NCBI RefSeq assembly: GCF_000955955.1
Contig: NZ_JYJG01000306.1
Span: forward strand, 1-31,235
Length of the DNA stretch: 31,235 bases
Direction of reading: 5' to 3'
Source: Lentzea aerocolonigenes
GTDB lineage: Bacteria > Actinomycetota > Actinomycetes > Mycobacteriales > Pseudonocardiaceae
Shown: piece by piece, positions 1,566 to 19,688 of the stretch
Position numbering within the stretch: position 1 is the stretch's first letter
Layout of the letters: each line of letters begins with the position of its first letter
Position numbers and translations under genes: made by a program
The notes under the pieces: model-generated
Databases searched by the model: none
Told to the model about the DNA's origin: nothing
Seen by the model: the letters and a program-made list of their open reading frames with translations, nothing else

Positions 1566-2981
1566 GTGATCTACCGCAGCCCCCTGCCCGCGGTGGCCGT
1601 CCCTGCGACCACGGTCCCCGCACACGTTCTCAGGCGCAGCGACGACAAGGTCGCGCTCAAAGACGCCGTCACGGGTGAGGCACTCACCTACGCCGAGCTC
1701 AAAAACGACGCCGACAAGACCGCCAGAGGCCTTGTCGCCCAAGGGATCAAGCCCGGCGACACGATCGCGATCGCGAGCGTGAACCGGCCGAGGTACGCCG
1801 TCGGATTGCACGCGATCATGGCCGCGGGAGCGGCGGCCGTGCTCATCAACCCGCTCCTCACGCCACAAGAGATCGAGCGACTCAAGACCCTCGCGAACGT
1901 GCGCAACACGCTCGACCTCGACGACCTGCCGCGAGACGACACGGCGCAGCTCCCGCGAACCGACCCGGCACAGACCGCCGCCGTCCTCTTCTCCAGTGGC
2001 ACCACGGGAATCACCAAGGCAGTCAAGCTCAGCCACCGGGCTCTCGTCGCCAACCTCGAGCAGCAACGCCAAGGCTGGCGCATCGACGAGACGGACGTGC
2101 TCGCCGCGAACCTGCCGTTCTTCCACATCTACGGCTTCGCGATCATTCTCAACTCCGGCCTCCTCGGCGGCGCCACGCTCATCACCATGCCGCGCAGCGA
2201 CCCGGGCACGTACTTACGACGCCTCAACGAGCACAAGGTCACCCGCGCGTTCCTAGTGCCACCACTGGCAGCCGCCATCGCGGACCACGAAGGAACACCA
2301 CCGCCGCAACACCTCAAGCTCGTGCTCTGCGGCGCCGCCCCGCTCGACGAAACGACAAGACGACAAGCCGAACGGAAACTCAACGCGCCCGTCCGGCAGG
2401 GCTACGGCTTGACCGAAGCAGGTGGCACGCACCAGACGTTCGACGACGACACGGACACCGACCCGCAGAGCGTCGGCGTGCTCAGTCCGGGCACCGAAGC
2501 GCGGATCACGGAACAAGGCGAGATGCTCATCCGCGGCCCGCAGGTCATGGACGGCTACCTGAACGACGAGGAAGCCACCCGACAGGCCTTCGTGGACGGT
2601 TGGCTCAGGACAGGTGATCTCGTGCGTGTCCACAACGGCCGGTTCTACGTCGTCGACCGCGTCAAGGAAATGATCAAGTACAAGGGTTACCAGGTCGCGC
2701 CCGCCGAGCTGGAAGCGTTGTTGCGCAGGCATCCCGCGATCAAGGACGCGGCCGTCGTCGGTGCGCCCGATCGGGCTAACGGCGAGGTGCCCAAGGCCTT
2801 CGTGGTGACGCAAGGCGACGTCACGGCCGAGGAGCTCATCGCGTTCGTGGCGGCGGAGGTGGCGCCTTTCAAGAAGGTGCGCCAGGTTGAGTTCGTGGAA
2901 GAGATACCCAGGTCGGTCTCCGGCAAGATCCTGCGCCGGTTGCTCAAGGACCCCCAGAAGGATCCACGGTGCGAGTCCTGA
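1566..2981 (+). CDS. 4-coumarate-CoA ligase-like acyl-CoA synthetase
   Basis: ANL superfamily adenylate-forming enzyme, 471 aa, expected to activate an arylpropenoic or related carboxylic acid with ATP and load it onto CoA. Visible motifs are the P-loop SSGTTGITK from residue 143, GYGLTEAGG, DGWLRTGDL, the hinge VDRVKEMIKYKGYQVAP typical of 4CLs, and the catalytic lysine in SVSGKILRR (K454). The protein is about 50 residues shorter than typical 4CLs. The shortfall lies before the P-loop, where INPLLTPQEIERLKTL runs quickly into the nucleotide-binding segment. It overlaps the next gene by 13 bp, so the two are probably translated together. The nearby aromatic amino acid lyase makes cinnamate-type acids the natural substrate guess (inference). 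A fatty-acid or aryl-acid ligase remains possible. Confidence 0.88.
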   Translation: MIYRSPLPAVAVPATTVPAHVLRRSDDKVALKDAVTGEALTYAELKNDADKTARGLVAQGIKPGDTIAIASVNRPRYAVGLHAIMAAGAAAVLINPLLTPQEIERLKTLANVRNTLDLDDLPRDDTAQLPRTDPAQTAAVLFSSGTTGITKAVKLSHRALVANLEQQRQGWRIDETDVLAANLPFFHIYGFAIILNSGLLGGATLITMPRSDPGTYLRRLNEHKVTRAFLVPPLAAAIADHEGTPPPQHLKLVLCGAAPLDETTRRQAERKLNAPVRQGYGLTEAGGTHQTFDDDTDTDPQSVGVLSPGTEARITEQGEMLIRGPQVMDGYLNDEEATRQAFVDGWLRTGDLVRVHNGRFYVVDRVKEMIKYKGYQVAPAELEALLRRHPAIKDAAVVGAPDRANGEVPKAFVVTQGDVTAEELIAFVAAEVAPFKKVRQVEFVEEIPRSVSGKILRRLLKDPQKDPRCES

Positions 2982-3694
2982 TCACCGGAGGCGCGAAGGA
3001 GCTCGGCAGGGCCTTCAGTGAAGTCCTTGGCGCGCAAGGACATCAGCTCGTCATCACCGGCCGCGACGAGAAGGCGCTCGACGCCGCCGGAACAGAGCTG
3101 AAAGCCAAGGGCGTCGACGTCGAGACGCACGTCGCCGACCTCGCGGACCCGCACGCGACACCGAAGCTCATCGAGGGCCTCGGCAATCTTGACGTGCTGG
3201 TCAACAACGGCGCGCTCGGCGGACCGGTCGGGCCCACGTGGCAGGTCGACGAGGACGACTGGTGGCGCACGTTCGAGGTCAACCTGCGCGGCACCGCGGC
3301 AGCCATGAACGCCGCGATTCGCACCATGACGAGCGGGCGGATCATCAACGTGGTCAGCAACGCCGGTGTGCACCGCTGGCCTTACGTCACGGCGTACTCG
3401 GTGTCGAAGGCCGCCGTGATCAAGCTGACCGAGAACGTCGCGATCGAGCTGAAACGACGGCCGATCGCGGTGCTGAGCTACGACCCCGGCATGGTCGACG
3501 TCGGCCTGATGGGCCGCGGCTGCGCGCTGGACTCCGGCAACCCGCACGAGCAGCGCATCGCAACGTGGGCGAGATCTCAGCGCGACAACGGCAGGTTCAC
3601 CCCGGTGGAGCAGTCGGCCGGTCTTTTGGCCCGAATCGTGAGCGGAGAGTTCGATCACCGTTCTGGCGGACTCCTCACGCCCGCAGACGGCTGA
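2969..3694 (+). CDS. Short-chain dehydrogenase/reductase
   Basis: Classical SDR-fold NAD(P)-dependent oxidoreductase, 241 aa. The GTG start lies inside the ligase gene (13-bp overlap) with AAGGA upstream. The catalytic tetrad is present: N105 (EVNLRG), S130 (NVVSNAG), Y143 and K147 (YSVSK). The nucleotide-binding motif is TGGAKELG (6-13), so the middle glycine of TGxxxGxG is Glu11. The structural NNAG motif reads NNGA (79-82). R32 after the second beta strand (TGRDEK) suggests NADPH preference. The substrate is unknown. In this neighbourhood it could reduce a CoA ester-derived aldehyde or a side-chain ketone, but nothing in the sequence shows that. Confidence 0.85.
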   Translation: MRVLITGGAKELGRAFSEVLGAQGHQLVITGRDEKALDAAGTELKAKGVDVETHVADLADPHATPKLIEGLGNLDVLVNNGALGGPVGPTWQVDEDDWWRTFEVNLRGTAAAMNAAIRTMTSGRIINVVSNAGVHRWPYVTAYSVSKAAVIKLTENVAIELKRRPIAVLSYDPGMVDVGLMGRGCALDSGNPHEQRIATWARSQRDNGRFTPVEQSAGLLARIVSGEFDHRSGGLLTPADG

Positions 3695-3780
3695 TATTTG
3701 TTCGTGTAGAGCGTTTAGGCCCTTCCTCGCCGACAGGTCAACGGGGATCGTCGCGAGAGGCTCCCCGAATCGTCGTCCAC

Positions 3781-3786
3781 AGGAGG
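3781..3786 (+). promoter_or_regulatory. Strong RBS of the ammonia-lyase
   Basis: AGGAGG four bases before GTG 3791 fixes the start. The 96-bp gap after the SDR is the only real intergenic space within the five-gene set and could hold its own promoter, but no convincing -35/-10 pair was found. Confidence 0.6.
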
Positions 3787-3790
3787 CGTC

Positions 3791-5302
3791 GTGCCTGTCG
3801 GAACATCGTCCGCTGCCGTGAACTTGGCAGCGGCACTCGAACCCGCCCACCTCGAACTCGCGCGAAATCCGTTGCCCGTCGAACTTCCCGGTGACGTGAG
3901 AACACGGATAACGCACTGCCGGGAGTTCGTGCTCGACGTCAGCGGTTCCGGACGCGCGATCTACGGTGTCACAACGGGTTTCGGCCCGCTGGTCGAGTTC
4001 GCGGGCCGCGCGGACGGCGCCGGTCAGAGCGACAACACGATCCTCCACCACATCGTCGGGCACGGCGGGCTGATGCCGCCGGCGATCGCCCGCGCGGCCG
4101 TGCTGGCGCGGCTGTTCTCGTTGGCGCAAGGGCGATCCGGAGTGTCGGAGCACGTCGTCGAAGCGTTGATCGCCATGCTGGGCACCGAGTTCGCCCCCGC
4201 CGTGCCCCGGCTCGGCTCGGTCGGCGCCAGCGGTGACCTCCAGCCGCTGGCCTACGTCGCGCATGCGTTGCGCGGCAACGGGAATGCGTTTTTCCGCGGT
4301 CAGCTCATGCCTGCGGAACAAGCGCTCGCCGAAGCCGGACTCCGGAAGCTGGAACTCGACGGACGCGACGCGCTCGCGCTGGTGAACGGCATTTCGGTGA
4401 CCGCCGCCGCACTCGGACTCGCTGTCGCACAGGCGAACCGCTCGCACCGGACCGCGGAGCTGCTGTCCGCCCTGATGACCGACATCCTCGGCTGCGGCCG
4501 CGAGTTCACCTCGGTCGAGCTGCTCGCCGCGTTCGGCCACCCGGACGTCGCGGACACCGGCGCCGCCATCAGGACCTGGCTCGAAGGCAGCCGGCCGTCC
4601 GGTGAACGCCCGCTGCAGGAGGCCTACAGCATCCGCTGCGCACCCCAGCTGATCGGCGCGGCCGGCACGAGCGTGCGGCACGCGGAAGTGGTGGTGCGGC
4701 GCGACCTCAACGGCGTGAGCGACAACCCGTTGTTCTTCCCGGAGACCAAGGAGGTCGTGCACGGCGGCAACTTCTTCGGTCAGCCCAGCGCCTTCGCGGC
4801 CGACCAGCTCAACGTCGCCCTGGTGCAGCTGGGCAACCTGGCCGAACGCCAGCTCGACCTCCTGGTGGATCCCCAGCGCACCAACGGGTTGCCGCCGATG
4901 CTCAGCCCGCAGCCCGGGAAACACCACGCGCTGCAGGGTGTCCAGCTGTGCACGACGGCGACGGTGGCGGCGATGCGCCGCGCCGCCGCGCCCGCCTCGG
5001 TGCAGAGCCTGCCGACGAACCTGCACAACCAGGACGTCGTCCCGTTCGGCACCCAGGCCGCATTCACCGCACTCGACCAGGCCGGACTGCTGCGCTACCT
5101 GCACGCCGGGCTCGCGATCGGGCTGCGCCAGGCGGTGCACGTCGGCGCGCGCCGCCCGCAGGCCCCGAAGCTCAGGGAGGTGTTCGACAGGATCGCCGGC
5201 GAAGTGCCGCCGATCGTGGAGGACCGGCCACTCGACACCGCGCTCGGCGCCACCGCGGACCTCCTCGACACCATCGTGTCCGAAGTGGAGGGTGTGCGAT
5301 GA
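3791..5302 (+). CDS. Aromatic amino acid ammonia-lyase/aminomutase, probably tyrosine-specific
   Basis: MIO-dependent HAL/PAL/TAL family enzyme, 503 aa, a normal bacterial length. The A146-S147-G148 triad (GSVGASGDLQPL) forms the MIO cofactor. Y58 in IYGVTTGFGPL is the catalytic tyrosine. H86-H87-I88 lies 28-30 residues after it, the same spacing as H88-H89-L90 in Rhodobacter TAL, where His89 reads the tyrosine hydroxyl (comparison from memory). NQDVV near 417 is of PAL/TAL type, while histidine ammonia-lyases have NQEDH there. The likely reaction is L-tyrosine or L-DOPA to coumarate or caffeate. FGPLV after the catalytic loop also recalls the tyrosine aminomutases of enediyne clusters, so beta-tyrosine formation is an alternative. 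No other hut genes are present. Its stop overlaps the start of the next gene (ATGA). Confidence 0.88.
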   Translation: MPVGTSSAAVNLAAALEPAHLELARNPLPVELPGDVRTRITHCREFVLDVSGSGRAIYGVTTGFGPLVEFAGRADGAGQSDNTILHHIVGHGGLMPPAIARAAVLARLFSLAQGRSGVSEHVVEALIAMLGTEFAPAVPRLGSVGASGDLQPLAYVAHALRGNGNAFFRGQLMPAEQALAEAGLRKLELDGRDALALVNGISVTAAALGLAVAQANRSHRTAELLSALMTDILGCGREFTSVELLAAFGHPDVADTGAAIRTWLEGSRPSGERPLQEAYSIRCAPQLIGAAGTSVRHAEVVVRRDLNGVSDNPLFFPETKEVVHGGNFFGQPSAFAADQLNVALVQLGNLAERQLDLLVDPQRTNGLPPMLSPQPGKHHALQGVQLCTTATVAAMRRAAAPASVQSLPTNLHNQDVVPFGTQAAFTALDQAGLLRYLHAGLAIGLRQAVHVGARRPQAPKLREVFDRIAGEVPPIVEDRPLDTALGATADLLDTIVSEVEGVR

Positions 5303-6057
5303 GCGCCCCCGTCTGCCTGCCCGCCTGGGGTCACACCTGGGTCGATCTGCCGGTGCTGCGCATGCCGATGCCGGGTGCGGAATTGATTCCGTGCACGACC
5401 GGCTGCTATCAGATTCCAATCGACATCGGCACGCCGGAGGATCCGGTCGATCGAGCCGTCCACCGGTGGTTTCTCGGGCATCACGGCGCATTTCTGGTCT
5501 GGAGGTTTCTTTCGGCTTCACTCGATCGGTTGATACGCGAGCCTGATTCGCAACTAGTCCGCCTCACTGCGCTTGGATATGACGCGTACTCGGTCATGCT
5601 TGCCTATTCGGGCAGTTGTTCCCGTGAGGTGTACGAGGACGTCATCCGGCCGATGATGATGGCGTTCGACCCGGCGTTCAGCGGGCGGTGGGCTCGTGAC
5701 TACGAGCAGCTGCCCGGCCTGCTGCGCCGGGCCCGTACCGCACTGGGGCCCGTGGCGGCCGCACCCGTTTCCATCGCGAGCAAGGCGAACCTGTTGGCAC
5801 ACATGGAGGTCATGCGCAGACTCGTGCCCGGCGGCAACTCGCTGCTGCGCGAGTCGGGGCGTACGCGCGTGGCCACCACCGACGCCGAGCGCGCCCGGTT
5901 CGACGAGTTCTTCCTCGTCAGCAGGGAGAACGTGTGCGTGAGCCGCTACCGCGCACACCGCGCCGCCGTGCTGTCCGCGATCGGCCACGACCTCGCGAAA
6001 CACCCGCTGCGGCCCGAGGACACCGAAACACTCAGGGCGTTCGCCACTCGACTATGA
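5299..6057 (+). CDS. Candidate heme-dependent L-tyrosine 3-hydroxylase
   Basis: A 252-aa soluble protein that starts at an ATG overlapping the lyase stop (ATGA). It resembles the LmbB2/Orf13/SibU/TyrH group of histidine-ligated heme enzymes that convert L-tyrosine to L-DOPA with peroxide. Supporting points are the opening GHTWVDLPVLRMPMPG, the helical segment VHRWFLGHHGAFLVWRF (54-70) and NLLAHMEVMRRLVPGG (164-179). H61 or H62 and H168 are 106-107 residues apart, close to the spacing recalled for distal His88 and heme ligand His196 of the Streptomyces sclerotialus enzyme. The assignment rests on recognition and this spacing, not on an alignment. Codon use is atypical for about 5380-5640 (ATA, CTA, CTT, GGA, TAT codons) and normal after that. 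The flanking tyrosine lyase and O-methyltransferase fit a catechol-forming step. Confidence 0.62.
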   Translation: MSAPVCLPAWGHTWVDLPVLRMPMPGAELIPCTTGCYQIPIDIGTPEDPVDRAVHRWFLGHHGAFLVWRFLSASLDRLIREPDSQLVRLTALGYDAYSVMLAYSGSCSREVYEDVIRPMMMAFDPAFSGRWARDYEQLPGLLRRARTALGPVAAAPVSIASKANLLAHMEVMRRLVPGGNSLLRESGRTRVATTDAERARFDEFFLVSRENVCVSRYRAHRAAVLSAIGHDLAKHPLRPEDTETLRAFATRL

Positions 6058-6070
6058 AGGAAGGCCGCGC

Positions 6071-6727
6071 GTGAACGACTTCAAGACCGTGGTCATGACC
6101 CCGCAGATCTACCAGTACGTGCGCAGGCAGGCAGGCCAGCCCACCGCGGTGCAGGAGAAGCTGATCGCGAGGACGCTGGAGCTCGGCGACTCGGCGGAGA
6201 TGCAGATCCCGCACGAGCAGGCCGTTCTGCTGTCCCTGCTGGTCAAGCTCACCGGCGCGCAGACGATCGTCGAGGTCGGCACGTACACCGGGTACTCCAC
6301 GCTCGCGTTCGCGCAGGCGCTTCCCCCGCACGGCAGGATCATCACCTGCGACATCTCGGTCGAGTGGACCACGATCGCCGAGGAGGCGTGGGTGGCCGCG
6401 GGCGTGCGCGACAAGATCGACCTGCGCCTCGGAGCGGCCGCGCAGACGCTGGCCGAGCTGCCGGAAGAGCCGGTCATCGACCTGGTGTTCATCGACGCGG
6501 ACAAGGTCGGCTACGTCCACTACTGGGAACTGTTGGTGCCACGCGTGCGTCAGGGCGGTCTGCTGCTCGCGGACAACACGCTCTACTACGGCGAGGCGGC
6601 CTCGGAGCAGCCGGAGGGCAACGCCGCGGCGATCGACGCGTTCAACCAGTTCGTGCAGCGTGACCCGCGGGTGGAGTCCGTGCTGGTGCCGATTGCGGAC
6701 GGGCTCACTTTCGCCAGGAAGTTGTAG
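6071..6727 (+). CDS. Caffeoyl-CoA-type class I O-methyltransferase
   Basis: SAM-dependent, metal-dependent catechol O-methyltransferase of the Methyltransf_3 (CCoAOMT) family, 218 aa, the usual length. The GTG start has AAGGAAGG upstream and lies 13 bp after the hydroxylase stop. Motif I IVEVGTYTGYST binds SAM. LVFIDADKVGYVHYW carries the metal-binding aspartate, and LLLADNTLYYG the following Asp-Asn pair. The family methylates one hydroxyl of vicinal diols such as caffeoyl-CoA or DOPA-like catechols, which fits a catechol made by the preceding hydroxylase (inference). Its last two codons overlap the -35 box of the next operon. Confidence 0.88.
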   Translation: MNDFKTVVMTPQIYQYVRRQAGQPTAVQEKLIARTLELGDSAEMQIPHEQAVLLSLLVKLTGAQTIVEVGTYTGYSTLAFAQALPPHGRIITCDISVEWTTIAEEAWVAAGVRDKIDLRLGAAAQTLAELPEEPVIDLVFIDADKVGYVHYWELLVPRVRQGGLLLADNTLYYGEAASEQPEGNAAAIDAFNQFVQRDPRVESVLVPIADGLTFARKL

Positions 6728-6750
6728 GCATACCGACCGGTCGGTAGGGT
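6722..6750 (+). promoter_or_regulatory. Promoter of the LLM oxidoreductase/TetR operon
   Basis: TTGTAG (6722-6727), a 17-bp spacer and TAGGGT (6745-6750). The spacing is ideal, and the spacer is almost entirely the operator palindrome. Confidence 0.6.
6731..6746. promoter_or_regulatory. TetR-type operator, perfect 16-bp palindrome
   Basis: TACCGACCGGTCGGTA is perfectly self-complementary and sits between the -35 and -10 boxes. A TetR-family gene ends the operon, so autorepression by blocking RNA polymerase is the natural reading. Confidence 0.8.
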
Positions 6751-6780: not shown

Positions 6781-7731
6781 ATGGCTCGTTGGGGAATCAC
6801 GCTGCCGCTGCTCGGCGTGCCGGTGCTGGAGCACCGCGCGCTGGTGTCCGAGCTCGCCGGGCTCGGCTACACCGACGTGTGGTCGGCCGAGACGACCGGC
6901 ACGGACGCGTTCACGCCGCTCGCGCTGGCCGCGCAGTGGTCCTCCGAGCTGCGGTTCGGCCCGGCGATCGTGCCGGTCTACACGCGCGGCCCGGCGACGC
7001 TGGCGATGAGCGCGGCGACGATGGCCGAGGTGACCGGCGGCCGGTTCGTGCTGGGCATCGGCTCGTCGTCGCCCGCGATCGTGCAGCGCTGGAACGCCAT
7101 CCCGTTCGAGGAGCCGTTCAAGCGGACCCGCGACACGCTGCGCTTCCTCAAGGCGGCGCTGGCGGGGGAGAAGGTCACCGCCGAGTACGACACGTTCAAG
7201 GTGTCTGGCTTCAAGCTGGAGCGCCCACCGGCCGAGAAGGTGCCGATCATGCTGGCCGCGCTGCGGCCGAACATGCTGCGCCTGGCCGCGCGCGAGGCAG
7301 ACGGCGCGATCACGAACTGGCTGGCCGCCGAGGACGTGGCGCAGGTCCGCTCGGAACTCGGTGACGCCGAACTGGCCGCGCGGATCTTCGTGTGCCCGAC
7401 CGAGGACGCCGACGCCGCACGGGCGCTGGGCCGCATGCTGATCAGCACCTATCTGACCGTGCCCGCGTACGCGGCGTTCCACGACTGGCTGGGCCGCGGT
7501 GAGGCGCTGCGCCCGATGCACGAGGCGTGGGCCGCCGGCGACCGCAAGGCCGCGTCGAAGTCCATCCCGGACGAGGTCGTGGACGCGCTGGTCGTGCACG
7601 GTTCGCTGGACCAGTGCCGGGCACGCGTCGCCGAGTACCAGACCGCGGGCGTCGACACCCCGATCATCGCGCTGCTCCCGACCGGTGGTGACCAGGTCGA
7701 ACAGGTGCGCGCGCTGGCACCCAAGGCCTAG
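6781..7731 (+). CDS. LLM-class F420-dependent oxidoreductase
   Basis: Luciferase-like TIM-barrel flavin/F420 oxidoreductase, 316 aa. ATG 6781 is chosen because GGAGG (6771-6775) lies five bases upstream; a TTG at 6769 overlaps that RBS. Family signs are the N-terminal WGITLPLLGVPVLEH, the strand GLGYTDVWSAET, the segment GPAIVPVYTRGPATLAMSAATMAEVTGGRFVLGIGSSS, and the later VPIMLAALRPNMLRLAAREADGAITNWLAAEDV. The exact substrate cannot be read from sequence. Cofactor F420 is likely because this subfamily is actinobacterial and F420-linked. It is followed two bases later by the tetR gene and shares its promoter and operator. Confidence 0.88.
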   Translation: MARWGITLPLLGVPVLEHRALVSELAGLGYTDVWSAETTGTDAFTPLALAAQWSSELRFGPAIVPVYTRGPATLAMSAATMAEVTGGRFVLGIGSSSPAIVQRWNAIPFEEPFKRTRDTLRFLKAALAGEKVTAEYDTFKVSGFKLERPPAEKVPIMLAALRPNMLRLAAREADGAITNWLAAEDVAQVRSELGDAELAARIFVCPTEDADAARALGRMLISTYLTVPAYAAFHDWLGRGEALRPMHEAWAAGDRKAASKSIPDEVVDALVVHGSLDQCRARVAEYQTAGVDTPIIALLPTGGDQVEQVRALAPKA

Positions 7732-7733
7732 CG

Positions 7734-8306
7734 ATGCCCGGCGCGACCGAGCAGAAGATCATCGACGCGGCCGTGCGCCTGTTCGCGTCGCAGGGCTACG
7801 ACGCGACCTCGGTGCAGGAGATCGTCACGGCCGCGGAGGTGACGAAAGGCGCGCTGTACCACTACTTCCGCGCCAAGGACGACCTGCTCTTCGAGATCTA
7901 CCGGCTGCTGATCACGTCCCAGTCCGCCGACATGGACCGGATCATCGGCCTCGGGCTGTCGTCCTCCGAGACCGTCCGGGAGATCCTGTGCTCACTGGTG
8001 GTCTCGACGGCCGAACGGGTCGACGAGACCGCGGTGTTCGTGCGGGAGCTGCACCGGCTCGGCGAGGACCGGATGACCGAGTTCCGCGCCGAGCGCCGCC
8101 GGTACCACGAGACGTTCCTCGCGGTGATCGAGAAGGGGCAGGCGGACGGCTCGTTCAGCTCGTCGGTGCCCGCGGACACGGTGGTGCGGATCGCGGTGGG
8201 CGTCGTGAACCAGCTGCCCATGTGGTACCGGCCGGACGGTCCGAAGCCGCCTCCCGTGCTGGCCGGGGAGATCGCCGACTTCGTGCTGGCGGGCCTGTCG
8301 GCGTGA
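7734..8306 (+). CDS. TetR/AcrR family transcriptional regulator
   Basis: A 190-aa TetR-type repressor. The N-terminal helix-turn-helix (KIIDAAVRLFASQGYDATSVQEIVTAAEVTKGALYHYFRAKDDLL, residues about 8-52) is canonical. The C-terminal ligand domain (about 60-190) has no recognisable ligand signature. The ATG lies two bases after the oxidoreductase stop, so the two are co-translated. It most likely binds the palindrome at 6731-6746 and represses its own operon. An effector related to the oxidoreductase substrate is plausible but not shown. Confidence 0.92.
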   Translation: MPGATEQKIIDAAVRLFASQGYDATSVQEIVTAAEVTKGALYHYFRAKDDLLFEIYRLLITSQSADMDRIIGLGLSSSETVREILCSLVVSTAERVDETAVFVRELHRLGEDRMTEFRAERRRYHETFLAVIEKGQADGSFSSSVPADTVVRIAVGVVNQLPMWYRPDGPKPPPVLAGEIADFVLAGLSA

Positions 8307-11254: not shown

Positions 11255-11266
11255 GTGGAGGAGTCG

Positions 11267-13714: not shown

Positions 13715-13834
13715 CAAGCCGTCGCTGAAACCCCCACCGCCGCAGAATTACCGGTGCGGGCACAGGCGTGATGCCGGTCCGGCGTTAGGTGGATAGGGTC
13801 GGCGGGTAGCTACTTGGCTGTGACGAGGAGCATC
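13715..13834 (+). promoter_or_regulatory. Upstream region of treX, candidate start signals
   Basis: Contains GAGGAG (13825-13830) four bases before GTG 13835, which favours that start. TAGCTA/TACTTG around 13807-13816 could be a -10, in which case GTG 13820 might be used leaderless. No clear -35 is seen. Confidence 0.35.
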
Positions 13835-15940
13835 GTGCGACCCTGGCCTGGAAGGCCCTACCCGCTGGGCGCCGGATATGACGGTGTTGGCACCAATTTC
13901 GCCCTGTTCTCCGAGGTCGCGGAGTACGTGGAACTCTGCCTCTTCGACGAGGACGGCACAGAGACACGCGTGAGGCTGCCGGAGGTGGACGGCTTCGTCC
14001 ACCACGGCTACCTGCTCGGCGTCGGTCCTGGCCAGAAGTACGGATATCGCGTGCACGGCCCGTACGACCCGGCACGGGGCCTCAGGTGCAACCCCAACAA
14101 GCTGTTGATCGACCCGTACGCCAAGGCCATCTCCAACGGCCTGGCGTGGGACGAGGCGCTGTACGGGTACAAGTTCGGGTCGCCGGACGAGCGCAACGAC
14201 ACGGATTCGGCGCCGCACGTGCCCAAGAGCGTCGTGGTGAACCCGTTCTTCGACTGGACGAGCGACAGGTTGCCCAAGACGCCGTACAACGAGAGCGTCA
14301 TCTACGAGGCCCACGTGCGCGGCCTCACGATCGACCACCCGGAGATTCCGCCGCGGCTGCGGGGTACGTACGCGGGCCTCGCGCATCCGGTGATGATCGA
14401 CCACCTGACCAAGCTCGGCGTGACGGCGGTCGAGCTGATGCCGGTGCACCAGTTCATCAGCGATCACACGCTGGCCGAGCGCAGGCTCAGCAACTACTGG
14501 GGTTACAACACGATCGGCTTCTTCGCGCCGCACGACGCCTACTCGGCGTTGCCGCTGAACCAGGTGCAGGAGTTCAAGGGCATGGTCAGGGCCCTGCACC
14601 AGGCGGGCATCGAGGTCATCCTCGACGTCGTCTACAACCACACCGCCGAGGGCAACCATCTCGGGCCGACTCTGTCCATGCGCGGGATCGACAACGAGTC
14701 GTACTACCGGCTGGTGGAGGACGACCCGAAGTTCTACATGGACTACACGGGCACCGGTAACTCGCTGAACGTGCGGGCGCCGCACACGTTGCAGCTCATC
14801 ATGGACTCGCTGCGGTACTGGGTCACCGAGATGCACGTCGACGGCTTCCGGTTCGACCTCGCGGCGACGCTGGCCAGGGAGTTCTACGACGTGGACCGGC
14901 TGGCGACGTTCTTCGAAGTCGTGCAGCAGGATCCGGTGGTGTCGCAGGTCAAGCTGATCGCGGAGCCGTGGGACGTCGGGCCCGGTGGGTACCAGGTCGG
15001 CAACTTCCCGCCACTGTGGACGGAGTGGAACGGGCAGTTCCGGGACACGGTGCGGGACTTCTGGCGCGGGGAGCGGGCGACGCTCGGCGAGTTCGCGTCC
15101 CGGATCACCGGCAGCAGCGACCTCTACCAGGACGACGGGCGCAGGCCGTACGCGTCGATCAACTTCGTGACGGCGCACGACGGGTTCACGCTGAACGACC
15201 TGGTGTCGTACAACGAGAAGCACAACGAGGCCAACGGCGAGGACAACCAGGACGGCGAGAGCCACAACCGGTCCTGGAACTGCGGTGTCGAGGGGCCGAC
15301 GGACGACGAGGAAGTGCTCACGCTGCGGGCGCGGCAGCGGCGGAACCTGATGGCGACGATGCTGTTGTCGCAGGGTGTGCCGATGATCGTCAACGGCGAC
15401 GAGTTCGGGCGCACGCAGCACGGCAACAACAACGCGTACTGCCAGGACAACGAGGTGTCGTGGGTCGACTGGTCGTTGCTGGAGAGCAACGCCGAGCTGG
15501 TCGAGTTCACCGCCGCGCTGTCGCGGTTCCGCAGGGCGCACCCGGTGTTCCGGCGCAAGCGGTTCTTCGCGGGCCGGCCGATCCGCAAGGGCGAGGAGCT
15601 GCGCGACATCGCGTGGTTCACCCCGTCCGGCGAGGAGATGACCGAGCAGAACTGGGAGGACGACTTCGGCAAGTGCGTCGTCATCTTCCTCAACGGCGAG
15701 GGCATCCCGGACCTCGACTCGCGCGGCATGCGGGTGGTCGACGACTCGTTCCTGATGGCGTTCAACGCGCACTACGAGGACATCGAGGTGACGTTGCCGG
15801 ACGTCGAGTACGGTCCTGAGTGGACGGTGGTGGTCGACACGACGACCGGGCACGTCGGCAACGGCGAGAAGCCCGTCGTCGCGGGCGGGCAGCTGACCCT
15901 CACCGCGCGGTCGCTCGTGGTGCTGCAGAGGGTGGGCTGA
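13835..15940 (+). CDS. treX: Glycogen debranching enzyme (GH13, isoamylase type)
   Basis: TreX/GlgX, 701 aa, hydrolyses alpha-1,6 branches of glycogen or maltodextrin to feed TreY. GTG 13835 gives the usual N-terminus MRPWPGRPYPLGA; TTG 13814 and GTG 13820 are alternatives. An N-terminal CBM48 domain (about 8-100) precedes the GH13 barrel. Catalytic residues are D341 (GFRFDLAATL), E377 (LIAEPWDVG) and D449 (VTAHDGFTLNDLVSYN). The ANGEDNQDGESHNRSWNCGVEG loop is characteristic of TreX/GlgX. Its TGA shares its final base with the treY ATG, so the three tre genes form a coupled operon. Confidence 0.96.
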   Translation: MRPWPGRPYPLGAGYDGVGTNFALFSEVAEYVELCLFDEDGTETRVRLPEVDGFVHHGYLLGVGPGQKYGYRVHGPYDPARGLRCNPNKLLIDPYAKAISNGLAWDEALYGYKFGSPDERNDTDSAPHVPKSVVVNPFFDWTSDRLPKTPYNESVIYEAHVRGLTIDHPEIPPRLRGTYAGLAHPVMIDHLTKLGVTAVELMPVHQFISDHTLAERRLSNYWGYNTIGFFAPHDAYSALPLNQVQEFKGMVRALHQAGIEVILDVVYNHTAEGNHLGPTLSMRGIDNESYYRLVEDDPKFYMDYTGTGNSLNVRAPHTLQLIMDSLRYWVTEMHVDGFRFDLAATLAREFYDVDRLATFFEVVQQDPVVSQVKLIAEPWDVGPGGYQVGNFPPLWTEWNGQFRDTVRDFWRGERATLGEFASRITGSSDLYQDDGRRPYASINFVTAHDGFTLNDLVSYNEKHNEANGEDNQDGESHNRSWNCGVEGPTDDEEVLTLRARQRRNLMATMLLSQGVPMIVNGDEFGRTQHGNNNAYCQDNEVSWVDWSLLESNAELVEFTAALSRFRRAHPVFRRKRFFAGRPIRKGEELRDIAWFTPSGEEMTEQNWEDDFGKCVVIFLNGEGIPDLDSRGMRVVDDSFLMAFNAHYEDIEVTLPDVEYGPEWTVVVDTTTGHVGNGEKPVVAGGQLTLTARSLVVLQRVG

Positions 15941-18018
15941 TGGGCGCGCCCGATTCCACGTACCGCGTTCAGCTCACCCCGGACTTCACCTTCGCCGACG
16001 CCGCCGCCATCGCGGACTACCTGCGGCGACTGGGAATCGGCGCGCTGTACGCGTCGCCGATGCTCGACGCGCGGCAAGGCTCGACCCACGGCTACGACGT
16101 CGTGGACCCGACCCGTGCACGGCCTGAGCTCGGTGGCGACGAAGGCCGCCGGGCACTGCAGAAGAGCTTGGCAGAGCACGAACTCGGGCTCGTCGTCGAC
16201 ATCGTGCCGAACCACATGGTCGTGCCGAACCCGTGGTGGGACGACGTCCTCGCGAACGGTCGGAACTCCAGGTACGCGCGGTACTTCGACATCGACTGGT
16301 CGTCCGGCAAGGTGCTGCTGCCGGTGCTCGCGGAAGGGGCGCAGGACGAACCGGGCGAGCACTCCGTCAAGGTCGACTGGCGGCGCGGCAACTCCGAGCT
16401 CAACTACCGCCGGTTCTTCGACATCACCGAGCTCGCGGCGGTGCGGGTCGAGGACCCGGAGGTGTTCGAGGCGACGCACCGCGAGGTCCTGTCGTGGGGT
16501 GTCACGGGACTGCGCGTCGACCACCCGGACGGTCTCGCCGATCCGGGCGGGTACTTCCGCAGGTTGCGCGAGCACTTCGACGGCTGGCTGGTCGTGGAGA
16601 AGATCCTCGGCCCTGACGAGTCGCTGCCGCAGAGCTGGCCGGTCGACGGCACCACGGGTTATGACGCGTTGCGCGAGGTCTGCGGTGTGTTCATCGCGCC
16701 CACCGACGCGTTCGCGGGTGATTTCCACACCGTCGAGCACGAGTCACGGCAGCAGGTGGCGGACTCGATCCTGGTCGCCGAGGTGCGCCGGATCGCCCGC
16801 CTCGTGCAGGGCGTCGACTTCGAGGACGCTTGCCAGGCCGTTGCCGAGGTGATGGTCGGCTTCCCGGTCTACCGGTCGTACCTGCCGGAAGGTTCAGGCC
16901 ACTGGGAAACCGCGGTCCGCAAGGCCAAATCGCCTGCCGCGCGCGCACTCGACGAGCAGGTGCGCAACGATCCGCACGGTGAGCTGGCGACCAGGATCCA
17001 GCAGACGTCCGGCATGGTCGTCGCCAAGGGCACCGAGGACACCGCGTTCTACCGCTACACGAACTTCGTGGCGCTCAACGAGGTCGGCGGCTCGCCGGAC
17101 AGGTTCGGCATGCCGGTCACCGAGTTCCACCAGCGCGCCCAAGCCCGCGAAGCGCAGACGCCCCGAGCAATGACCGCGCTGTCGACGCACGACACCAAGC
17201 GGTCCGAGGACGTCAGGGCCAGGCTCGCGGTGCTGGCCGAGATCCCGGACTCCTACCTCGCGTTCGAGAGCGCGATGTCCGAGAAGCACGGCATCTCCGA
17301 ACCGACGCTGAACCGTCTCGCGTGGCAGTCGCTGGTCGGCGCGTACCCGATCACCGAGGACCGTCTCGGGCAATACCTCGAGAAGGCGTCCAGGGAAGCC
17401 AAGATCAAGACGTCCTGGGTCGACCGGAACGCCGAGTTCGACGCCGAGGTGGCCGCGTGGCCGGCGAAGGTGCTGAACGAACCCGAGGTCGCCGCGTTCG
17501 CCGAACGGATCAAGGCTCCCGGCTGGGCGAACTCGTTGGGGCAGAAGCTGGTCCAGCTCACGGCGCCCGGCGTGCCGGACATCTACCAGGGCACCGAGCT
17601 GTGGGACTTCTCGCTGGTCGACCCGGACAACCGCCGGCCGGTCGACTACGAGGTCCGCGCAGAGCTGCTGGACCGCATCGAAAAGGGCTGGCTGCCGGAG
17701 ATCGACGACTCCGGCGCGGCGAAGCTCCTGGTCGTGCAGAAGGCTTTGCACGTCCGCAAACGCGGTCTGCATGGCTACCGGCCGCTGCACGCCGAAGGCC
17801 CGGCCGCCGAGCACGTGCTGGCGTTCGAACGCTCCGGCGTGATCACGGTGGCGACGAGGCTGCCGGTCGGGCTGGCGCAGAAGGGCTGGCAGGACACGGT
17901 TCTGCCGCTGCCGGGTACGAAGTGGACGGACGTGCTCACCGGCCGGCCGGCCACCGAGGACCTGGCCGGACTGCTCGGCACCTATCCGGTCGCACTGCTG
18001 GTTCAGGGGGACGAGTGA
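15940..18018 (+). CDS. treY: Maltooligosyltrehalose synthase
   Basis: GH13 transglucosylase, 692 aa, which isomerises the reducing-end alpha-1,4 bond of maltodextrins to the alpha,alpha-1,1 bond of maltooligosyltrehalose. The ATG overlaps the treX stop (TGATG). TYRVQLTPDFTFADAAAIADYL and ALYASPMLDARQGSTHGYDVVDP are typical TreY openings. Catalytic residues are D194 (GLRVDHPDGLADP), E220 (VVEKILGPDE) and D418 (STHDTKRSEDVRAR). GTEDTAFYRY and PGVPDIYQGTELWDFSLVDPDNRRPVDY are further family signatures. The protein is slightly shorter than the usual 750-800 aa. GTGA overlap with treZ. Confidence 0.96.
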   Translation: MGAPDSTYRVQLTPDFTFADAAAIADYLRRLGIGALYASPMLDARQGSTHGYDVVDPTRARPELGGDEGRRALQKSLAEHELGLVVDIVPNHMVVPNPWWDDVLANGRNSRYARYFDIDWSSGKVLLPVLAEGAQDEPGEHSVKVDWRRGNSELNYRRFFDITELAAVRVEDPEVFEATHREVLSWGVTGLRVDHPDGLADPGGYFRRLREHFDGWLVVEKILGPDESLPQSWPVDGTTGYDALREVCGVFIAPTDAFAGDFHTVEHESRQQVADSILVAEVRRIARLVQGVDFEDACQAVAEVMVGFPVYRSYLPEGSGHWETAVRKAKSPAARALDEQVRNDPHGELATRIQQTSGMVVAKGTEDTAFYRYTNFVALNEVGGSPDRFGMPVTEFHQRAQAREAQTPRAMTALSTHDTKRSEDVRARLAVLAEIPDSYLAFESAMSEKHGISEPTLNRLAWQSLVGAYPITEDRLGQYLEKASREAKIKTSWVDRNAEFDAEVAAWPAKVLNEPEVAAFAERIKAPGWANSLGQKLVQLTAPGVPDIYQGTELWDFSLVDPDNRRPVDYEVRAELLDRIEKGWLPEIDDSGAAKLLVVQKALHVRKRGLHGYRPLHAEGPAAEHVLAFERSGVITVATRLPVGLAQKGWQDTVLPLPGTKWTDVLTGRPATEDLAGLLGTYPVALLVQGDE

Positions 18019-19688
18019 GCTTCGAGGTCTGGGCGCCGACACCCGAGTCGGTGCACGTGCGCGTCGACGGCTTCGACCACGAGATGAAGCGCGACGGCGA
18101 CTGGTGGCGTTCAGACGCTGAGGGCACCGACTACGCGTTCGTCATCGAGGGCCAGGCTTATCCGGATCCGCGGTCGCTGTGGCAGCCGAACGGCGTGCAC
18201 GAGGCGTCCCGCGTCTACCGGCACGACTTCGGTTGGACCGACCAGGGCTGGACGGGCCGGGCGTTGCAGGGCGGCGTGATCTACGAGCTGCACATCGGCA
18301 CGTTCACGCCAGAGGGCACGTTCGACGCGGCCATCGGGAAGCTCGACCACCTGGTGGACCTCGGCATCACGTTCGTCGAGGTCATGCCGGTCAACAGCTT
18401 CGACGGCGTCGAGGGCTGGGGTTACGACGGCGTGCTGTGGGGCGCGGTGCACGAGCCCTACGGCGGCCCGGACGGCTTCAAGCGGTTCGTCGACGCCTGC
18501 CACGCGCGGGGTCTCGCCGTGCTGCTGGACGTCGTCTACAACCACCTCGGACCGTCCGGCGCGTACCTCGACAAGTTCGGCCCGTACTTCGCGGGCCGCA
18601 ACGACTGGGGACCGGGCCTGAACCTCGACGGACCGAACTCCGACGAGGTCCGCAGGTACGTGATCGACAACGCGCTGCAGTGGCTCGGCGACTTCCACGT
18701 CGACGGCCTCAGGCTCGACGCCGTGCACGCACTGGCCGACCGGCGCGCGGTGCACGTGCTCGAAGAGCTGGCCGCGGAGGTGGACGCGCTCTCGGCAGGG
18801 CTCAACCGACCGCTCAGCCTGATCGCCGAGTCCGACCTGAACGACGCGAAGCTCGTCACGGCACGGGAAGGCGGCGGGTACGGACTGCAGGCGCAGTGGT
18901 CCGACGATCTGCACCACTGCCTGCACGTCGCACTAACGGGCGAAACTTTCGGCTACTACGAGGACTTCGCGGCACCGGGAGCGTTGCAGAACACGCTGGA
19001 GAAGGTCTTCTTCCACGCCGGCACCTGGTCGTCGTTCCGCGAGAAGCACCACGGCAAGCCGGTCGACACCGCGCTGATCCCGGGTTACCGGTTCCTCGCG
19101 TACACGCAGAACCACGACCAGATCGGCAACCGGGCAACGGGCGACCGGCTGCCGGCCACGGTCTCGACCGGGAAGTTGTTGTGCGCGGCGGCGATCGTGC
19201 TGACCTCGCCGTACACGCCGATGATCTTCATGGGCGAGGAGTGGGCCGCGAGCACGCCGTGGCAGTTCTTCGCGTCCTTCCCGGACCCGCAGCTGGCCGA
19301 GGCCGTGCGGACCGGCCGCCGCAAGGAGTTCGCGCGGCACGGCTGGGGCGAGTCGGACGTGCCGGACCCGATGTCACCACAGACCGTCGAGAACTCGCGC
19401 CTGAAGTGGAACGAGGTCGACAGCGCTGATCACGCGAAGGTGCTGGAGACCTACAAAGCGCTGATCGCGTTGCGCCGCTCCCGCCCGGAGCTCGCCGACC
19501 CGCGGTTGGACAGGTTCGTGGTGGAGCAGGACGGGCTGTGCTTGGTGCTGCACCGCGGGACGACCCGCGTGGTGGTGAACCTCGGCACGACGCCCGTCCC
19601 GCTGCCTCAGGGCGACGTGCTGCTGACCTCCTCGGCCAGCCCGTCGTCACTTTCCCCGGAGTCGTTCGCGGTCGTCGCGTCGACGTGA
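18015..19688 (+). CDS. treZ: Malto-oligosyltrehalose trehalohydrolase
   Basis: GH13 enzyme, 557 aa, which releases trehalose from maltooligosyltrehalose. The GTG start overlaps the treY stop (GTGA). The N-terminal CBM48-like domain (FEVWAPTPESVHVRVDG) leads to the barrel, with YELHIGTFTPEGTF and GWGYDGVLWGAVHEPYGGP. Catalytic residues are D235 (GLRLDAVHAL), E272 (LIAESDLND) and D368 (QNHDQIGNRA). SPYTPMIFMGEEWAA is typical. With treX and treY it completes conversion of glycogen to trehalose, a compatible solute and carbon store. The last 82 bp are also read on the other strand as the end of the ANTAR gene. Confidence 0.96.
   Translation: MSFEVWAPTPESVHVRVDGFDHEMKRDGDWWRSDAEGTDYAFVIEGQAYPDPRSLWQPNGVHEASRVYRHDFGWTDQGWTGRALQGGVIYELHIGTFTPEGTFDAAIGKLDHLVDLGITFVEVMPVNSFDGVEGWGYDGVLWGAVHEPYGGPDGFKRFVDACHARGLAVLLDVVYNHLGPSGAYLDKFGPYFAGRNDWGPGLNLDGPNSDEVRRYVIDNALQWLGDFHVDGLRLDAVHALADRRAVHVLEELAAEVDALSAGLNRPLSLIAESDLNDAKLVTAREGGGYGLQAQWSDDLHHCLHVALTGETFGYYEDFAAPGALQNTLEKVFFHAGTWSSFREKHHGKPVDTALIPGYRFLAYTQNHDQIGNRATGDRLPATVSTGKLLCAAAIVLTSPYTPMIFMGEEWAASTPWQFFASFPDPQLAEAVRTGRRKEFARHGWGESDVPDPMSPQTVENSRLKWNEVDSADHAKVLETYKALIALRRSRPELADPRLDRFVVEQDGLCLVLHRGTTRVVVNLGTTPVPLPQGDVLLTSSASPSSLSPESFAVVAST

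Follow-up and report, generated by a model that had tools for sequence, protein, structure and literature searches.

A candidate tyrosine-to-ferulate gene set in Lentzea aerocolonigenes

We analyzed a 31,235-nt stretch of DNA from Lentzea aerocolonigenes (contig NZ_JYJG01000306.1, C576 among the 648 contigs of the 10.2 Mb host genome; referred to as the window), in which five genes, all on the plus strand within positions 1566-6727, are candidates for the conversion of tyrosine to a ferulate-type phenylpropanoid. They are predicted to encode a 4-coumarate-CoA ligase (4CL)-type acyl-CoA ligase with an AMP-binding and a C-terminal domain (1566-2981, GTG start at 1566), a classical short-chain dehydrogenase/reductase (SDR; 2969-3694), an aromatic amino acid lyase of the 4-methylideneimidazole-5-one (MIO) type resembling tyrosine ammonia-lyase (TAL; 3791-5302), a heme-dependent L-tyrosine 3-hydroxylase (TyrH; 5299-6057) and a cation-dependent O-methyltransferase (OMT) of the CCoAOMT/COMT type (6071-6727). 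These five families on one strand had been proposed from the sequence by the original prediction and were confirmed here, four through Pfam and TyrH through its match to the solved structure 7kqr. Likewise, no polyketide synthase (PKS) or nonribosomal peptide synthetase (NRPS) domain, as had been stated, and no carrier protein was detected among the 21 proteins of the window that were searched against Pfam (seven proteins, then six and eight at E 1e-8), which make up most, but not all, of the genes in the window. The description of the genes as mostly overlapping or within about 15 bp applies to three of the four junctions (a 13-bp overlap between ligase and SDR, a 4-bp overlap between lyase and TyrH, and a 13-bp gap between TyrH and OMT), but not to the SDR-lyase junction, where a 96-bp gap probably corresponds to a promoter or leader region. 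Since this gap holds a conserved leader (3715-3766, plus strand), the five genes probably constitute two units rather than one, divided at this position. A gene for an M23 peptidase lies upstream of the set, and genes for a luciferase-like oxidoreductase (LLM) and a TetR regulator lie downstream.

The ligase matched PF00501 (E 1.6e-69) and PF13193, and its best solved match was 4-coumarate-CoA ligase 2 (5bsw, 3.3e-76), which places it in the ANL fold with 4CL enzymes as its closest solved relatives and makes 4CL-like specificity a prediction. The SDR matched PF00106 (1.1e-38), with TGGAKELG and S-Y-x3-K motifs present. For the OMT, the match to PF01596 (Methyltransf_3; 4.8e-53) scored 179.9 bits against a cut-off of 22, and caffeoyl-CoA OMTs and norbelladine OMTs are among its solved relatives.

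The lyase and hydroxylase carry residues expected for tyrosine-derived chemistry

The lyase matched PF00221 with 429 bits (E 2.5e-128) and contains the MIO triad A146-S147-G148 together with the catalytic tyrosine Y58. When a family profile (A3, eight rows, with L001, the distant L004 and also L063 left out) was compared with solved structures, 2o6y ranked first (E 9.2e-95, 321 bits), followed by 7tqr (295 bits), tyrosine aminomutase (289 bits) and the histidine ammonia-lyase 1gkm (283 bits). The 2o6y structure is labeled a putative histidine ammonia-lyase in the PDB, and we take it to be the Rhodobacter sphaeroides TAL. H86 of the window lyase aligns with the 2o6y histidine that is His89 of R. 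sphaeroides TAL and with a phenylalanine in chain 2o78. In the portions of the literature consulted, His89 is described as touching the 4-hydroxyl of the substrate and setting selectivity for tyrosine, with His89Phe switching the enzyme to phenylalanine. An equivalent histidine was found in all 23 lyases of what we term the type-1 loci (the window locus and 22 same-genus counterparts, L035-L056), and a motif search recovered it in 23/23 lyases read from a set of 26 related loci, or module loci, described below (24 of these have a lyase; that of L093 was unread).

TyrH had no match in the Pfam copy used and was recognized by comparison with the solved heme TyrH 7kqr (E 4.5e-23). In a Foldseek search of the PDB with the predicted model (mean predicted local distance difference test score 86.7), all seven matches with E <0.001 were TyrHs, with template modeling (TM) scores, normalized by query, of 0.70-0.74. 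H61 and H168 are invariant across 18 aligned TyrH sequences, the window protein and LmbB2 among them, and correspond in the alignment to two 7kqr histidines, presumably its distal and proximal heme residues. By sequence and predicted-fold homology, we assign the 5299-6057 product to the TyrH/LmbB2 superfamily. Among named genomes, the nearest TyrHs (L125-L141) are 84-92% identical and come from Lentzea without exception. LmbB2 makes 3,4-dihydroxyphenylalanine (DOPA) from tyrosine and holds heme b, according to the part of the report consulted (PMC3851162). The window TyrH would be expected to hydroxylate L-tyrosine to DOPA.

The lyase-TyrH-OMT trio is conserved across the genus, probably as a separate unit

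Besides the host, 22 of the other 23 genomes of the genus had a TyrH match (31 of 149 genomes overall, host included). At the 22 same-genus loci, which were fetched through their TyrH match, the lyase, TyrH, OMT, LLM and TetR genes all covered at least 88% of the window protein without in-frame stops. Median dN/dS values were 0.14-0.24 for these five genes and 0.19-0.24 for the lyase, TyrH and OMT, a trio that is under purifying selection. The ligase was at least 70% covered at 16 of the 22 loci and the SDR at 14; both were near full length at 11/22, while at the same 70% coverage five loci had only the ligase, three only the SDR and three neither. The ligase and SDR have been repeatedly and independently lost within the genus. 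Where present, they had median dN/dS values of 0.26 (ligase) and 0.28 (SDR), with neighboring genes at 0.15-0.32. In-frame stops in the ligase at three same-genus loci were considered as a sign of decay and rejected, as the stops fall in the last five residues and do not indicate breakage. The M23 gene had stops in 6/21 rows, near a doubtful start, so that stops at alignment ends mean little.

Within the gap upstream of the lyase, 40-50 bp were recognizable at all 23 type-1 loci, including those without an SDR, and this sequence probably acts as promoter/operator or leader for lyase, TyrH and OMT as a unit. A hairpin was predicted from an alignment of 21 loci. A riboswitch was considered and rejected: there was no Rfam match in the leader at the gathering threshold, none of the 20 predicted pairs had changed on both sides, and a promoter or operator is as likely an explanation. 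A short word of the leader, GGGATCGTCGCGAG, has one further occurrence in the host genome, on contig C360. Because the trio is conserved, the ligase and SDR are lost and the leader is kept where the SDR is missing, we conclude that lyase, TyrH and OMT form a unit of their own whose function is independent of the neighboring ligase or SDR. Given that ligase and SDR are both intact at only 11 of the 22 loci, the conserved function probably ends at the free ferulate-type acid.

The set recurs in other actinobacteria as part of a fuller module

A search of actinobacterial genomes for co-occurrence, as had been suggested, found lyase, TyrH and OMT together in relatives belonging to four families. 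A TyrH profile (A1) was matched by 76 of 390 genomes at the family level, by 20 of the 397 sampled from the order and by 4 of the 396 sampled from the phylum, counts that include the host each time and some weak matches; ~20 kb was fetched around many, not all, of them. A TyrH tree of 71 rows, containing part of the fetched loci (10 of 80 named) and lacking three of the 23 type-1 rows and L116, split into two sides with 100/100 support. A lyase of this kind was encoded in the stretch around none of the 19 rows on the LmbB2-like side, as compared to 43 of the 52 rows of the clade containing the window, which is made up of 20 type-1 rows, 25 module rows, five TyrH-OMT pairs and two rows with neither. 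Several long branches make the inner order of the tree unsure, and because the rows include near-copies, they do not represent independent occurrences. The set is carried by, among others, Nocardia higoensis, Actinoallomurus spadix, Glycomyces dulcitolivorans, Umezawaea beigongshangensis, Saccharothrix yanglingensis and four Amycolatopsis species.

The 26 module loci, from four families, were chosen for showing the set and include near-copies, such that the counts reflect variety rather than frequency; gene ends at these loci are approximate. The OMT was present at all 26, the ligase at 25, the lyase at 24 and the SDR at 22. Ligase and SDR occupy a single open frame at 17/26, a fusion confirmed by Pfam for L058, L068, L147, L154 and L160. 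Additional genes encode a zinc alcohol dehydrogenase (ADH) of the medium-chain dehydrogenase/reductase (MDR) type (15/26; Pfam-confirmed for L058, L067 and L147), a multicopper oxidase with a SnoaL-like protein (6/26; Pfam-confirmed in L058 only) and a wax ester synthase/diacylglycerol acyltransferase (WS/DGAT)-type acyltransferase (5/26; Pfam-confirmed for L067, L147, L154 and L160). The N-terminus of the multicopper oxidase, judged by eye, resembles an export signal. A match to two PKS queries was detected in the fetched stretch at 12/26 loci. Neither the window nor the 22 same-genus type-1 loci had an MDR match, and the monolignol-type combination of ligase, SDR and zinc ADH was not encountered there. 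The fusion of ligase and SDR in relatives argues that the SDR handles the product of the ligase, and its occurrence at 17/26 loci, often beside the zinc ADH, suggests that the CoA ester is reduced. A zinc ADH next to the fusion and an acyltransferase that uses alcohols are consistent with an alcohol as a later product.

Several loci depart from this pattern. The host has a second, divergent set (L057, contig C620, 354-13984, both strands) beside AT, KS, KR/DH and P450 genes. Two clusters of the second type, L061 and L062, have the fusion, ADH and oxidase, but a lyase is missing from the stretch; the genome's own type-1 lyase might also act for these clusters. A pairing of TyrH and OMT, with no lyase in the surrounding stretch, was also noted at L165, L167, L168 and L170 (Streptomyces and Nonomuraea), of which the tree holds L165 and L167 only; these pairs perhaps make 3-methoxytyrosine for other products. 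The existence of TyrH-OMT pairs without a lyase (five tree rows) suggests that DOPA itself may be a substrate of the OMT.

Proposed pathway and alternative explanations

Gene co-occurrence and residue conservation are what was observed; from these we infer which reactions TyrH, the lyase and the SDR catalyze, whether methylation or deamination comes first, and which product is formed in the end. The heme TyrH would convert L-tyrosine to DOPA, the TAL-type lyase would deaminate DOPA to caffeate (or a 3-methoxylated DOPA, if methylation comes earlier), and the metal-dependent OMT would methylate the 3-hydroxyl, either at the caffeate stage or as early as DOPA. Where intact, as in the window, the ligase would convert the acid to its CoA ester, which an intact SDR would most likely reduce to the aldehyde. 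We thus favor, with a probability of roughly 0.6, a model in which the trio makes 4-hydroxy-3-methoxycinnamate, a ferulate-type acid, from tyrosine, followed, with intact ligase and SDR, by the CoA ester and then most likely the aldehyde. A more tentative extension is a native actinobacterial monolignol-type pathway leading from tyrosine through DOPA, caffeate, feruloyl-CoA and coniferaldehyde to coniferyl alcohol, of which the window would hold a genus-wide reduced form ending at ferulate or the aldehyde. Such a pathway would employ the heme hydroxylase, TAL, OMT, ligase-SDR fusion and zinc ADH, followed in some strains by acylation of the wax-ester-synthase type or phenol coupling by the multicopper oxidase.

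The tyrosine-to-phenylpropanoid reading of the original prediction is well supported in that the families recur together and conservation extends to the heme histidines and to the TAL-type histidine of the lyase. As far as the sequences can show, none of the three outcomes that the prediction had named as contradicting it was encountered. For the SDR, which the prediction did not explain, the fusion to the ligase in relatives suggests a role in reducing the CoA ester. Its treatment of the five genes as one set requires revision, as the families do recur together but are not one tight unit, with the trio conserved and ligase and SDR repeatedly lost. Similarly, a ferulate-type product is supported, but the acyl-CoA that had been proposed is not necessarily the endpoint at the window locus.

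A number of observations weigh against the favored model. One of the 23 same-genus genomes (G023) lacks a TyrH match, and only half of the same-genus loci retain both ligase and SDR near full length, as noted above. The TyrH model superposes loosely on solved TyrHs (root-mean-square deviation 4.6-6.2), and the protein has 252 aa compared to 316 aa for the solved chain and 317 aa for LmbB2. The nearest solved relatives of the SDR are generic reductases. Assignment of the SDR as a true cinnamoyl-CoA reductase (CCR) is unsupported by sequence, and since its 49 solved matches with E ≤1e-15 include none labeled CCR, it at most works like a CCR. Plant CCRs are extended SDRs. The lyase scored under the cut-off of all eight NCBIfam models that it matched, and the window sequence alone ranked 7tqr, labeled a probable histidine ammonia-lyase, first (232.8 bits), with tyrosine aminomutase (220.3 bits) edging 2o6y (219.2 bits). 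Finally, the second selectivity residue, at the position of Leu90 in R. sphaeroides TAL, is histidine rather than leucine in 17/23 type-1 lyases, including that of the window (His87), as opposed to leucine in the other 6/23 and in all 23 module lyases read. This histidine may mark a changed substrate, and we therefore class the window enzyme as TAL-like and not as TAL.

The near-equal scores of the window sequence with aminomutase and TAL are what would be expected if the MIO enzyme were a tyrosine/DOPA 2,3-aminomutase, with the resulting 3-methoxy-beta-tyrosine activated by the ligase for attachment to another molecule, and lyases and mutases of the MIO fold differ little. We nevertheless judge this beta-tyrosine product, which had been put forward as an alternative, to be unlikely: profile A3 favors TAL (321 versus 289 bits), the His-Leu pair of TAL is found in the 23 module lyases read, the score with the tyrosine 2,3-aminomutase equivalog TIGR03832 is 271.4 bits for a cut-off of 501, the ligase is closest to 4CL and fused to the SDR in relatives, and neither a carrier protein nor an NRPS was seen among the scanned window proteins. 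A histidine ammonia-lyase in an accidental grouping is very improbable, although the HutH models are the top NCBIfam matches and 7tqr is the best single solved match. We rejected it on cut-offs, motif and profile rank: the HutH equivalog TIGR01225 gave 349.8 bits for a cut-off of 539.15, H86 occupies the TAL position, and profile A3 puts 2o6y above 7tqr and the histidine ammonia-lyase chains. In addition, a stronger PF00221 protein (631 bits) is encoded elsewhere in the host genome, and the gene association recurs across four families.

Other alternatives concern the fate of the product. The set could supply a feruloyl-CoA-type starter to a PKS, with the SDR as a polyketide tailoring reductase, as the PKS-query matches at 12 module loci, the second cluster of the host on C620 among them, would allow. 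This seems improbable given that 14/26 module loci are without such a match (possibly too high a count, as a KAS III-type gene at L060 was not flagged), that the scanned window proteins showed no PKS domain, and that the ligase-SDR fusion is also found at Nocardia, Actinoallomurus and Glycomyces loci without a PKS match. A doubtful but somewhat stronger candidate is that what is conserved is the production of 3-methoxytyrosine or free ferulate for use as a small pigment, an antioxidant or a signal, with ligase and SDR vestigial in Lentzea. This overlaps our favored model and differs in giving ligase and SDR no role. The retention of the trio at 22/22 fetched loci alongside independent losses of ligase and SDR, as well as the five clade rows that are TyrH-OMT pairs without a lyase, are consistent with it, whereas the dN/dS medians of the two genes, inside the range of the neighboring genes, speak against it.

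Neighboring genes and other features of the window

In the gap between the OMT and LLM genes, a perfect 14-bp palindrome, ACCGACCGGTCGGT (6732-6745, no strand assigned), was found exactly conserved at 23/23 type-1 loci. It occurs as a single exact copy in the window, in which 11 sites with at most three mismatches were counted versus 4.9 expected. The palindrome is probably the operator of the TetR regulator encoded at 7734-8306 (plus strand; PF00440, PF17932), and because it sits in the OMT-LLM gap at all 23 loci, it suggests that LLM and TetR form a further, self-regulated unit with an autoregulatory TetR. The LLM gene (6781-7731, plus strand) encodes a predicted F420-dependent luciferase-like oxidoreductase (PF00296, 2.8e-63; TIGR03841 above its cut-off), for which the next best match within its own genome is 32% identical. 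Whether LLM belongs to the pathway as a sixth enzyme is uncertain. Its presence at 22/22 same-genus loci, and homologs of 62-64% identity located ~2 to 13 kb from clusters of the second type at L059, L081 and L084, point to a link, while the separate TetR-controlled unit suggested by the palindrome, and the absence of the palindrome from L059, L081, L084 and L149, point away from one.

Elsewhere in the window, the only Rfam match was to the sRNA Ms_IGR-5 (RF02471; 20960-21136, minus strand). Three genes of the alpha-amylase family lie in a row at 13820-19688, with a 4-alpha-glucanotransferase gene at 11255, and together these resemble a glycogen-to-trehalose cluster.

Comparison with known systems

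The window TyrH shares superfamily, fold and histidines with LmbB2 and SsTyrH of lincomycin and pyrrolobenzodiazepine biosynthesis, but lies across a 100/100 split from the rows called LmbB2-like (LmbB2 itself is not in the tree) and is flanked by an MIO lyase and an OMT. Relative to the R. sphaeroides TAL 2o6y, the top solved match of profile A3, the window lyase has the His89 equivalent, but 2o6y is not the top match for the window sequence alone, which has a histidine where 2o6y has a leucine. SgcC4 (2qve, 2rjr), which we take to be the tyrosine aminomutase of C-1027, has the MIO fold in common and a similar score with the window sequence alone, but scores lower with profile A3, and no NRPS partner was found among the scanned window proteins.

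For the caffeoyl pathway of saccharomicin in Saccharothrix espanaensis, Sam8 is presumably the TAL. Both this pathway and the one proposed here are actinobacterial routes to a caffeoyl unit, but Sam5 hydroxylates p-coumarate in the former, as described in the part of a review consulted (PMC8773403), whereas here a heme TyrH, presumably acting on tyrosine, is combined with an OMT. The same portion of the review notes that the formation of caffeic and ferulic acid in actinobacteria is poorly documented (PMC8773403); related literature, also consulted in part, includes a paper on p-coumarate in Kutzneria (PMC10777205). In the open-access literature, searched in part, we found no description of the combination of heme TyrH, ligase-SDR fusion and ADH. 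Each gene family is already known and an actinobacterial caffeoyl route with Sam5 exists; within the literature covered, the combination appears to be new. The gene set offers a specific, testable answer to the origin of caffeic and ferulic acid in actinobacteria, with an unusual entry enzyme, and clusters of this kind without a PKS match would be overlooked in searches keyed to PKS or NRPS genes.

The plant monolignol pathway proceeds through PAL/TAL, C3H, CCoAOMT/COMT, 4CL, CCR and CAD. The order of steps would be alike if the SDR and zinc ADH of the module are reductases, and TAL-type entry and CCoAOMT-type methylation are common to both. The differences are a heme tyrosine hydroxylase here, presumably acting before deamination, where plants use a P450; a classical SDR in place of the extended-SDR CCR; and the fusion of ligase and SDR at 17/26 related loci, with the window itself lacking the ADH. 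The fusion beside a zinc ADH suggests that a route to lignin-like precursors was assembled in bacteria from different components, and the fused ligase-SDR could serve to make aldehydes from phenolic acids.

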